NCBI GenBank assembly: GCA_018268255.1
Contig: JAFDWX010000001.1
Span: 62,001 to 126,000, forward strand
Direction: 5' to 3'
DNA length: 64,000 nt
Source of the DNA: Armatimonadota bacterium
Lineage (GTDB): Bacteria; Armatimonadota; Fimbriimonadia; Fimbriimonadales; Fimbriimonadaceae
Below are positions 24,702 to 26,570 of this stretch, in pieces. Position 1 is the stretch's first letter. The number at the start of each line of letters is the position of its first letter. Made by a program: the position numbers and the translations under genes. Below the pieces are notes generated by a model. It saw only the letters and a program-made list of their open reading frames with translations. It made no database searches and was not told where the DNA came from.

Positions 24702-25123
24702 TCGAGATACCTTCTGACGCCACCCGAGAACTGGTCCGAATTCGTTACGGCGAAACCGACCGTATGGGTCATGCCTACTATGCCAACTACCTGTTCTGGT
24801 TTGAGCAAGCGCGAGGGGCTTGGTGCCGCGACCGTGGTTTCGACTATAAGGATCTGGAGGACATGGGCGTGATGCTACCTGTCGTCGAAGCCCACGTTCG
24901 GTATAAGGGCGAGATCCTATACGACGATGTGATCGAGATTGCCGTGTGGGTCAGCGAGATCAAACGTGCCGCCCTCCGATTTGACTACGCCGTGTTTCGA
25001 CAAGGCGAATCGCTGCTGCTCACCGACGGATATACATGGCACGTAACGATGGGAACCGAGCGTAAAGCCATTTCTGTCCCACCCCATGTTCGGGAGATGA
25101 TGCAGCGGCCAAGGATTATTTGA
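24698..25123 (+). CDS. YbgC/4HBT-family acyl-CoA thioesterase
   Basis: 141 residues. The hotdog-fold signature VRIRYGETDRMGHAYYANYL, with the catalytic Asp in TDRMGH, followed by FEQARGAW, is that of YbgC/FadM-type acyl-CoA thioesterases. Later conserved parts include VEAHVRYKGEILYDD. These enzymes hydrolyse acyl-CoA or acyl-ACP thioesters; YbgC-type enzymes often associate with Tol-Pal, but no tol genes are present here. The ATG at 24698 overlaps the stop of the preceding gene. The 3' end overlaps a convergent gene by 8 nt. Confidence 0.9.
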   Translation: MIEIPSDATRELVRIRYGETDRMGHAYYANYLFWFEQARGAWCRDRGFDYKDLEDMGVMLPVVEAHVRYKGEILYDDVIEIAVWVSEIKRAALRFDYAVFRQGESLLLTDGYTWHVTMGTERKAISVPPHVREMMQRPRII

Positions 25124-25865
25124 TTCGGTCGAGATCCACTCTCGCGTTGACTAATTTGCCATCCGACCCCATGGGAAGGTTCACAAAATCAACATGCGAC
25201 CGGAGATACATTCCTGTCTTGGTGCTGATCCACACGGTGGATTTGCTGGACAGCGGATTCTTGCCGCCATCTTCTTGGTGGGTAACGGCAATTACAGCAG
25301 CCAACTCATCACCCACGGTTTCTGTCTTGAGAAATTCGTAGTTAGCAGTGCTGGCAGGAGTCCCCATCTTGGAATCCGCAACAAATGTGTGCGTCCACTT
25401 TTCTCCGACCCCGATCGGCTTATCTGGCACCACCACGATCCCGAAGTTCAGTGAACGAAGTTCAGACACTTTCTCGGCATCTCGCTTCACTTCGAGGGTC
25501 TCGCCTGTGGATTTGATGGCGATGCGCAGAACGGCAAAATCCGGGATGGTGGCGCTGTCGGACCCCATTCGGAACGTTAGCTCTTTGACCCGACGTTCCA
25601 TATCGATCTGCTTCCCTCGGGTACGGGTGATGACGTCTTCGACCGTCCCCTTGAGCTCGCCTGACGTCTTGCTTTCGGTGATCGCCATCTTGATGGAATA
25701 GCGGAACGTATCACCGACTCGGACTCGTCGCGTCAGGTCGTAGGTTTCCGTCTGCGCGCCTCCCAGCGTGGTGGCGAGCAGGAGCAATCCAGCCGCCTGG
25801 AGGCGGAGTCCCGACAAAGTCGGGACGAGGGCGTGGCTTCGGGCCAGGCGGCTGTGATTTTCCAT
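25116..25865 (-). CDS. Secreted hypothetical protein, paralogue of the upstream gene
   Basis: 249 residues. The N-terminus carries an unusual insertion (HSRLARSHALVPTLSGLRLQ) encoded by a 63-bp nested palindrome just before the hydrophobic core AAGLLLLATTLGGA of the signal peptide. The mature part resembles the upstream neighbour in layout: RRVRVGDTFRYSIKM, a GTVEDVI region, VGEKWTHTFV and a closing beta segment KTGMYLRSHVDF. It is probably a DUF6263-like periplasmic or surface protein; function unknown. The start is directly adjacent to the upstream stop. Confidence 0.7.
   Translation of the reverse strand: MENHSRLARSHALVPTLSGLRLQAAGLLLLATTLGGAQTETYDLTRRVRVGDTFRYSIKMAITESKTSGELKGTVEDVITRTRGKQIDMERRVKELTFRMGSDSATIPDFAVLRIAIKSTGETLEVKRDAEKVSELRSLNFGIVVVPDKPIGVGEKWTHTFVADSKMGTPASTANYEFLKTETVGDELAAVIAVTHQEDGGKNPLSSKSTVWISTKTGMYLRSHVDFVNLPMGSDGKLVNARVDLDRIK
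25791..25853. repeat. 63-bp nested palindromic element inside a signal-peptide region
   Basis: Outer arms AGCCGCCTGG (25791-25800) and CCAGGCGGCT (25844-25853) are perfect inverted repeats. They enclose an inner hairpin GTCCCGAC AAA GTCGGGAC (25808-25826). The length is a multiple of three and adds 21 codons without a stop. No second copy was seen in this window. Confidence 0.8.
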
Positions 25866-26570
25866 CTATTCGAGTTCCATCGTGAACTTGAGATCGTTTG
25901 GATGCTCTTCATCCTCAAGCGGCACGTTCTTACCATCCGCATTGAGCTTGATCATCAAGCCGTCCTTAAGCCGGATCCACATGGTGCCTTCAGCGGACAT
26001 TGGCTTGGAACCGCTCGTCTCGGCATACTTGTAAGTGACTTTGCCGCATTCCGCACCGCTCACGGTCTCGATGGCTTCCAGCTTAAACTCGCCTTTTGCT
26101 CCATCGATTTTCGTCTTGGCGTTCTCTTTGAACTCGACGGTCCAGGATTCACCCACCTTGACCTCCTTCTCGGGCCGCACGAACAGTGTGAGGTTGCTCA
26201 TCCGATAGTCGAGCGCTTCGGTTTCATCGCCCTCGATCTCCTTCACAAATCCCCGAGGATCGTACGTGATCTTCTTGGCATCTTCCTGAGGAATCGGAAA
26301 TTCCTGGCCAGCCACGGAGAACTTCAGGTCTTCGTCCTTGGATTCTTCGACAATCGTTCCATCAGACTCGACCTTGACTACTTTGCTGCGAGATTTGCCC
26401 GCAATGGTCGCCTGTTGATCTTCGATGGTCAGTTCAACGTTGATTTTCATCACCAACTCATCGCCAACTTTGGCAGTTCTCTTGAATCCGTAGGTTGCCT
26501 CGCCCGCGTGTGCGACAAGCATCAGGGTTAAAAGCGCCGGAAGAAGGCCGACGCGGTACATTGATTTCAT
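25866..26570 (-). CDS. Secreted hypothetical protein
   Basis: 234 residues with a signal peptide (YRVGLLPALLTLMLVAHAGE). The mature part follows a pattern repeated in the downstream gene: FKRTAKVGDELVMKINVEL, a TIAGKSRSKVVKV segment and VGESWTVEF, then DGLMIKLNADGK. The two adjacent genes appear to be a tandem duplication that has diverged. No catalytic motif is visible; a periplasmic beta-structured protein is likely. Confidence 0.7.
   Translation of the reverse strand: MKSMYRVGLLPALLTLMLVAHAGEATYGFKRTAKVGDELVMKINVELTIEDQQATIAGKSRSKVVKVESDGTIVEESKDEDLKFSVAGQEFPIPQEDAKKITYDPRGFVKEIEGDETEALDYRMSNLTLFVRPEKEVKVGESWTVEFKENAKTKIDGAKGEFKLEAIETVSGAECGKVTYKYAETSGSKPMSAEGTMWIRLKDGLMIKLNADGKNVPLEDEEHPNDLKFTMELE

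Follow-up and report, generated by a model that had tools for sequence, protein, structure and literature searches.

Results and Discussion

A Nested Palindrome at the Start of a Gene for a Probably Exported Protein

The window considered here (the whole stretch of 64,000 nucleotides that was analyzed) carries on its reverse strand, at 25116..25865, a gene encoding a protein of 249 amino acids with no Pfam family over cut-off, which is probably exported, its signal peptide being judged by eye. At 25866..26570 on the same strand lies a DUF6263-like paralogue (21.9 bits, below the Pfam cut-off of 26.7), the product of which is 23% identical to the host protein and has an ordinary short signal peptide (by eye); as the preliminary description had stated, this paralogue lacks the insert discussed below. 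The ATG of the host gene stands directly behind the stop codon of this paralogue (26570-25866), so that the insert is probably not a hairpin near the start of a transcript, contrary to an earlier suggestion.

The insert is a complete palindromic cassette of 65 bp at 25790..25854 on the forward strand (the strand of our family model, which reads GGCGGAG...CGAGGGCGTGGC), recognized by arm match, BLAST and the covariance model R1 described below. On this strand, its left outer arm, CAGCCGCCTGG (25790..25800), is 11 bp long and 100% complementary to the right outer arm, CCAGGCGGCTG (25844..25854). The nested palindrome first described is thus real, except that the arms are perfect one base further on each side, making them 11 rather than 10 bp and the whole 65 rather than 63 bp long. 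Between the arms lie a conserved left junction, GGCGGAG (25802..25808; alignments A2, A3 and A5), an inner hairpin, GTCCCGAC-AAA-GTCGGGAC (25808..25826), with a stem that covaries and is variable between copies, and a conserved right junction, CGAGGGCGTGGCTTCGGGC (25826..25844; family alignments), in which the C of TCGGG covaries with the second G of the left-junction GGCGG. The two halves of the inner stem (25808-25815 and 25819-25826) match perfectly over 8 bp, as had been claimed. Folded as DNA, a 75-nt stretch of the window at this site gives z = -4.8 on the forward and -5.1 on the reverse strand, with 0/200 shuffles as good on either strand; two other in-gene copies fold more weakly (z = -2.0 and -2.6, equaled by 6/200 and 4/200 shuffles, respectively).

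The insert contains no stop codon and touches residues 4-26 of the host protein, in line with the open frame noted previously. Proteins similar to the host protein are found in 59 of the 61 genomes searched (own genome included), the best matches being 25-31% identical, and the eight best alignments in relatives begin at query residues 17-26, past most of the insert, so that these residues are not conserved in all orthologues; some weaker alignments begin at residues 4-12. In relatives whose start can be seen, the n-region is short (by eye, the starts being uncertain). Judged from the sequence, the window insert is predicted to lie in the n-region of the signal peptide of its host, this signal peptide being called by eye.

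The Insert Belongs to a Dispersed Family

The window insert is one copy of a dispersed family, and further copies in the genome, which the preliminary description had proposed searching for, are abundant. BLAST with an 86-bp stretch found 11 places in the 3.19-Mb genome, the window copy included, at three of which no more than 30 bases or only about half of the query matched. Eight copies fetched in this way share a common core and have seven different outer-arm sequences, with arms that are complementary by eye in all eight (six pairs are perfect; L002 and L003 have mismatches). The covariance model R1, built from these eight copies, matches at least 57 places in the genome at E ≤ 1 and at least 44 at E ≤ 0.001, the eight training copies included, in a search that scored 150 of 428 candidates. 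The window cassette, itself among the training copies, is the second-best of the 57 matches (80.3 bits). A search by sequence thus misses most copies (11 BLAST places against 57 model matches), because it is the fold that is conserved and not the stems. We note that R1 holds one mistyped base, and that the model R2, which has the exact letters, gives 103 matches against 106 from the same 100 sources.

Among 101 genomes of relatives, R1 has matches in 10 at E ≤ 0.001 (own genome counted). Across the phylum, it has matches at E ≤ 1e-4 in at least 14 of 291 genomes (own genome counted), belonging to one family and to 6 of 156 genera, and gave nothing at this threshold in the 277 others; we infer that the family of all 14 carriers is Fimbriimonadaceae. 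Since the candidates were scored in part (in the phylum search, no more than 17 per genome) and the filters were strict, so that weak carriers can be missed, these copy numbers are lower bounds. As an example, G007 has a match at 3.6e-4 in the search of relatives and none at 1e-4 in that of the phylum.

Among the covariance models of Rfam 15, none exceeded its gathering score (7 loci, E up to 5); three overlap the element weakly (MIR474, E 0.27; sR53, 0.97; mir-662, 2.2), all with scores far below that threshold. BLAST of phage and plasmid records returned no match to the element, and the full element pattern has no match in IMG/VR, where the right junction alone is matched by 6 contigs; inspected by eye, their displayed stretches show neither left junction nor arms. 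Among the open-access papers listed for this bacterial group and for such repeats in general, we found none that describes the element in its title or at the start of its abstract.

The Stems Vary and Usually Remain Paired

In model-strand order, the element consists of an outer arm, GGGC(R)GAG, an inner stem-loop, CGAGGGCGYGGC.T(Y)GGGC and the second outer arm, such that the conserved junctions can be written GGGCRGAG ... CGAGGGCGYGGC-TYGGGC. The basic form measures about 60-74 bp, and forms with a longer inner hairpin reach about 103 bp. Our alignment A3 was drawn from 100 chosen sources, namely 96 of 147 loci and 4 named ones, and contains 106 matches, 104 of them distinct. In the 104 distinct copies, 93.1% of stem cells are paired and 629 cells are altered on both sides, with both-sided change at 11/11 outer and 8/8 inner pairs, and the covariation score is 0.685, compared to 0.083-0.121 with slid partners and 0.170 after shuffling. 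Repeating the stem analysis with R2 gives 93.1% paired, 604 both-sided changes and a score of 0.683. The R and Y of the junctions covary as well (GC 69, AT 29, GT 4, other 2), and the pair next to them is a nearly constant G.T wobble, in 91 of 101 scored rows. At some pairs C-G and G-C are nearly in balance, the second pair being C-G in 29 cases and G-C in 27. The A3 and R2 alignments were fitted to the structure, and the parser used for the counts below needs pairing, which biases these figures toward paired copies; the eight BLAST copies were obtained without a structure model and are unaffected by this bias.

The parser recovers 136 elements in 114 of the 147 loci, missing 33 loci; these include orthologous copies, at least one element counted twice (overlapping loci) and one, L238 (+), that looks spurious. 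The counts of arm 8-mers, target duplications, T-runs and tags that follow use these 136 elements, or the 131 of them with full flanks. Terminal inverted repeats are present, the parser itself having demanded paired arms, and the arm 8-mers adjacent to the core are of 102 different sequences among the 136 copies, being common only within subgroups. Because the arms change between copies and yet usually still pair, the element seems to be kept by shape more than by sequence.

Stems can also be compared at fixed places, since three related genomes have copies at the same loci. At two such loci, the third species has an inner stem of mostly other sequence that is nevertheless paired, including two swaps of C-G to G-C. 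At another locus, compared between two species, one arm pair is T-A in one and C-G in the other, and G.T replaces a standard pair at one arm pair and at one inner pair. In the orthologous copies L185 and L187 of two species, the inner hairpin is deleted in one, the arms being unchanged. From these shared-locus comparisons it follows that stems change at fixed places and usually stay paired.

Classical RNA selection would be expected to leave more G.U pairs than we see. In A3, G.U occupies 24 of 1122 outer and 15 of 738 inner cells (39/1860 in all), and A.C occupies 12 outer and 11 inner cells (23 in all); a separate count over the 136 copies gives G.U 14 against A.C 6 (p = 0.12). With G.U so rare and not far above A.C, with C-G and G-C nearly in balance at some pairs, and with both strands used by copies in genes and behind them (see below), we read these figures as favoring a DNA-level process over RNA, the latter being also possible.

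Two subfamilies of the window's own genome have an altered core, reading GGGCAGGGCTGAGG...CCGAAGCCAGGGC in L196, L200, L202, L203 and L205 and GGGCGGAATG...CATGGGG in L193 and L198. In a further, related type, the left side reads GAGGCGCAG or GAGGCGGAG and the right side GGCCTCGGGGA; it occurs at L217, L221, L228, L230, L231 and L083, all of G003, and at L067 and L082 of G023.

Copies Inside Genes and Behind Stop Codons

In the window's own genome, the genes for HisD, HemW, a GHMP kinase and two proteins with signal peptides (by eye) have in-frame copies, as does that for a GH2-like protein (weak Pfam match); a third signal-peptide gene, in G001, also has an open frame through its copy (by eye). 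Several reading frames are used by in-gene copies, three of which (those in the window gene, L052 and L065) stand at gene starts. For the GHMP kinase, the GH2-like protein, L052 and L065, the in-frame call is based on the open frame alone; those of HisD and HemW were set against relatives.

HisD has 30 residues at the site of the element, compared to 9 in the same-genus relative G002, an excess of 21 codons. Short loops prevail at this site among the 25 relatives shown, with longer ones in L119 and L120, and the stretch is left out of both PDB alignments shown; in L123, HisD has an unrelated insert behind the element site. The HemW insert is found in 0 of 29 aligned relatives, and the excess amounts to 38 alignment columns, 19 of them within the element. 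By these alignments, the HisD and HemW copies are in-frame additions. The HemW of this genome (L037:1440-1500) has about 19 further residues ahead of the element, missing in relatives, which are possibly an older, decayed insertion.

We consider it probable that the element is a small, non-autonomous mobile palindrome that was inserted in frame in the window gene, with stems that drift and stay paired, and this is the best explanation that we can offer for the data as a whole. The cassette would have entered the start of the signal-peptide gene, lengthening its n-region by some 21 residues.

Most copies lie outside genes. A crude codon-usage caller, applied to 50 of the 57 copies of the genome (6 of these with E above 0.001), places 9 inside a called gene, 2 overlapping one and 39 in intergenic DNA; it missed the HisD gene at L049, and some of the 9 in-gene copies may be intergenic, their gene starts having been called too far upstream. 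Within 60 nt of intergenic copies we find 33 gene 3' ends compared to 9 5' ends (a copy in a convergent gap being counted for two gene ends), and the distance to the stop codon is no more than 12 nt in 24 of 35 cases. Convergent gaps show no clear over-use relative to their share of the intergenic bases in the window. These positions would suit hairpins that are kept as RNA at the 3' ends of transcripts, where they would protect or end mRNA in either direction, the in-gene copies being tolerated accidents. The nearly constant G.T wobble, the excess of G.U over A.C in both of our counts and the persistence of copies in three species point the same way. However, tolerance behind stop codons accounts for the position equally well, G.U cells are rare, and there is no orientation bias, the copies having the same strand as the gene in 3 cases and the opposite in 6 within genes, and 14 and 19, respectively, behind genes. 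Nor is a T-run behind the stem the rule, as T4 follows within 10 nt on the right in 6/131 copies and A4 (a T-run on the other strand) stands on the left in 3/131. On balance, we regard selection for an RNA function as an unlikely account of the family.

Movement and Insertion Sites

Evidence for a mobile palindrome, as we prefer to read the element, comes from G003, in which several copies with the arms GTCTGCGCATTC, or nearly these, stand in unrelated flanks, sharing arms of 12 bp. L217 and L222 of this genome match over 79 nt; the similarity opens with the left arm's first base and closes 5-6 nt past the right arm, and its limits are nearly the same for L216/L222 and L217/L083; of the 15 copy pairs compared, several gave short or null matches, probably because the palindrome was taken in the opposite orientation. 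Since copies with the same arms occupy unrelated flanks, arms and core move together, and since the matches end 5-6 nt past the right arm, the mobile unit includes both arms and a short A-rich tail. On the right side, A is found at positions +2 to +5 in 57, 50, 53 and 44 of 131 copies, compared to 30-37 at +6 to +12, an excess that is strongest in G003 and weaker elsewhere. Target site duplications (k = 2-12, n = 131) show no excess over shuffled controls and, taken together with the A-rich 3' side, this makes insertion look oriented. Because several copies are common to related species, these data do not show movement to be current.

A clean empty site at the nucleotide level was not found for two of the three copies specific to Uphvl-Ar1 (G102), the comparison covering BC.035 (G101) and two more genomes. 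The first candidate in G101 retains both arms and has lost about 39 nt of core; the second has an extra, gene-sized stretch between the flanks and is rearranged. Separately, L050 (1106-1602) and L195 of the window's own genome have more than 200 bp of an internally repeated left flank in common, with similarity that ends at the right end of the element; since the left flank is also shared, this pair may be a segmental duplication.

No mobilizing enzyme was found, the Y1 transposase (PF01797) being the sole enzyme searched for. PF01797 has 0 matches in the window's own genome, and of the 12 carriers (own included) 10 lack it, including every copy-rich one (G000, G001, G003, G004 and G027); as a control, the search was positive in 5 of 14 known genomes. 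We therefore think it quite improbable that the copies are repeats of the REP/REPIN type, mobilized in trans by a RAYT (Y1) transposase, even if oriented insertion with absent target duplication would suit single-strand transposition. One copy in Uphvl-Ar1 (L188:1067-1743) does adjoin a Y1 (IS200-like) gene, standing just upstream of it (PF01797, 8e-27), a neighborhood that may be chance; a 52-nt direct repeat of another kind, with a GACCCCTCCGGGGTC palindrome, follows on the other side. Neither of the two further Y1 genes found has a copy next to it, and GTAG is found near an end in 2/136 copies compared to 4/136 flanking stretches.

The arms could also belong to the target, if the core enters a hairpin already present, at its loop, or if insertion makes an inverted copy of the target. 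Arms do differ in most copies, and removal of the core and one arm (54 bp) from the window gene also leaves an open frame (by hand). Against this stand the identical 12-bp arms in unrelated flanks of G003 and the pairing, which past the arms is not above the shuffled control. The HisD excess of 21 codons is moreover close to the core with both arms (66 nt) and larger than the core alone (44 nt), which is not decisive, as loop length varies among relatives. We hold an origin of the arms from the target to be highly improbable. Independent, immobile palindromes arising by template-switch mutation in place would account for perfect stems of arbitrary sequence, but are refuted as the sole explanation, and almost certainly wrong, given junctions conserved over some 100 copies and arms common to unrelated places.

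Similar Palindromes in Rickettsiales and a Possible Mechanism

A pattern scan returned 30 stretches, of which 19 are of Fimbriimonadaceae or other Armatimonadetes type, 6 are from Rickettsiales and 5 are from others (2 Streptomyces, 1 Gemmatimonadota, 1 Alloprevotella and 1 uncultured bacterium). The last 5 were taken as chance matches, as paired arms are missing by eye, despite E values with R1 (small search) of 2.7e-4 for the Alloprevotella locus and 3.3e-4 for L098. The six Rickettsiales loci (L090, L095, L100, L106, L107 and L108; 38-42% GC) come from three MAGs, two of them titled as from rumen, and match the right junction GCGAGGGCGTGGCCTCGGGC 16 times with no more than 4 substitutions. 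TTGCGC stands within 150 nt upstream in 10 of the 16, pairing in most with GCGCAA behind the junction, and these copies have a left junction GGCGCGGAG or similar (once GGGCGGAG) and an inner stem. L100 and L107 hold one identical copy in two MAGs. The covariance models match three places in Rickettsiales, all away from the pattern hits (E 3.7e-7 to 1.9e-5 with R1 and 9.4e-8 to 2.1e-5 with R2), and the best two R1 scores, 37.7 and 36.3 bits, exceed the 35 bits of the weakest listed match in the phylum. To judge by sequence, the Rickettsiales palindrome is GC-rich and has the same architecture as the window element, and a common origin of the two is likely.

Within our preferred reading of the family as a mobile palindrome, a putative recombinase would recognize one DNA strand folded into paired arms, inner hairpin and conserved junction. 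After insertion, the stems would drift and remain paired, either by one arm being recopied from the other, through template switching at the hairpin, or because folded copies are those that go on moving. More tentatively, as a possibility rather than a favored model, we propose an element recognized by its shape, in which the recombinase would move a folded strand defined by its arms, inner hairpin and roughly 27 conserved junction bases, leaving the stems free to change, up to wholesale swaps at a fixed locus, with complementarity kept up by copying at the DNA level; elements of the same type would then be present in Fimbriimonadaceae and Rickettsiales.

Comparison with Known Palindromic Repeats

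Rickettsia palindromic elements (RPEs) are described as short multi-copy palindromes that occur both in intergenic DNA and, in frame, within unrelated conserved genes; their families are given as about 100-150 bp long and as having a conserved peptide (PMC10969869, PMC2229807, PMC3767692). The likeness to them that the preliminary description had drawn holds for behavior, with in-frame insertion in conserved protein genes (here HisD and HemW, set against relatives), and does not extend to family membership: the arms and inner stem of our element are free in sequence and several frames are used, in contrast to RPEs as published. RPE-4 and RPE-6 are reported as CGTC-tagged (PMC3733652), and this end tag is not enriched in our copies (18/136, compared to 16/136 flanking stretches). 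By analogy, the element works like RPEs and MITEs, and we assign it to neither.

REPs and REPINs are, like our element, small, non-autonomous and mostly intergenic palindromes. They are described as folding into hairpins or clovers, the two REP sequences of a REPIN being strongly conserved and RAYT genes near (PMC3116915), and some REPs are reported as intragenic, with GTAG at one end (PMC3733652). Our element differs in its variable stems and in the absence of GTAG from its ends, and most carriers lack a Y1 gene. With bacterial MITEs (NEMIS/Correia, RUP, ERIC) the element has in common inverted-repeat ends, the lack of its own coding capacity and the possibility of in-frame fusions. MITEs of one family share terminal repeats, whereas those of our element are unlike in most copies. 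No target duplication is found here; among the seven repeat types tabulated in PMC2229807, four are given with a target duplication and three are marked unknown. Sponge mitochondrial DNA is described as carrying repetitive hairpin-forming elements dispersed in intergenic DNA (PMC2800124), which are alike as dispersed hairpins, likened by description and not by sequence, and are organellar.

Conclusions

Short palindromes of bacteria are usually grouped by sequence, and in the present family it is the fold that is conserved and not the stems. The family adds another bacterial group with in-frame palindrome insertions, besides Rickettsia and, with the intragenic REPs described in PMC3733652, others. 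The additional segments of HisD and HemW are amenable to functional tests, and the copies as a whole provide natural data on how the pairing of arms is kept up, be it through RNA-level selection, template switching or the recognition of DNA in its folded form.
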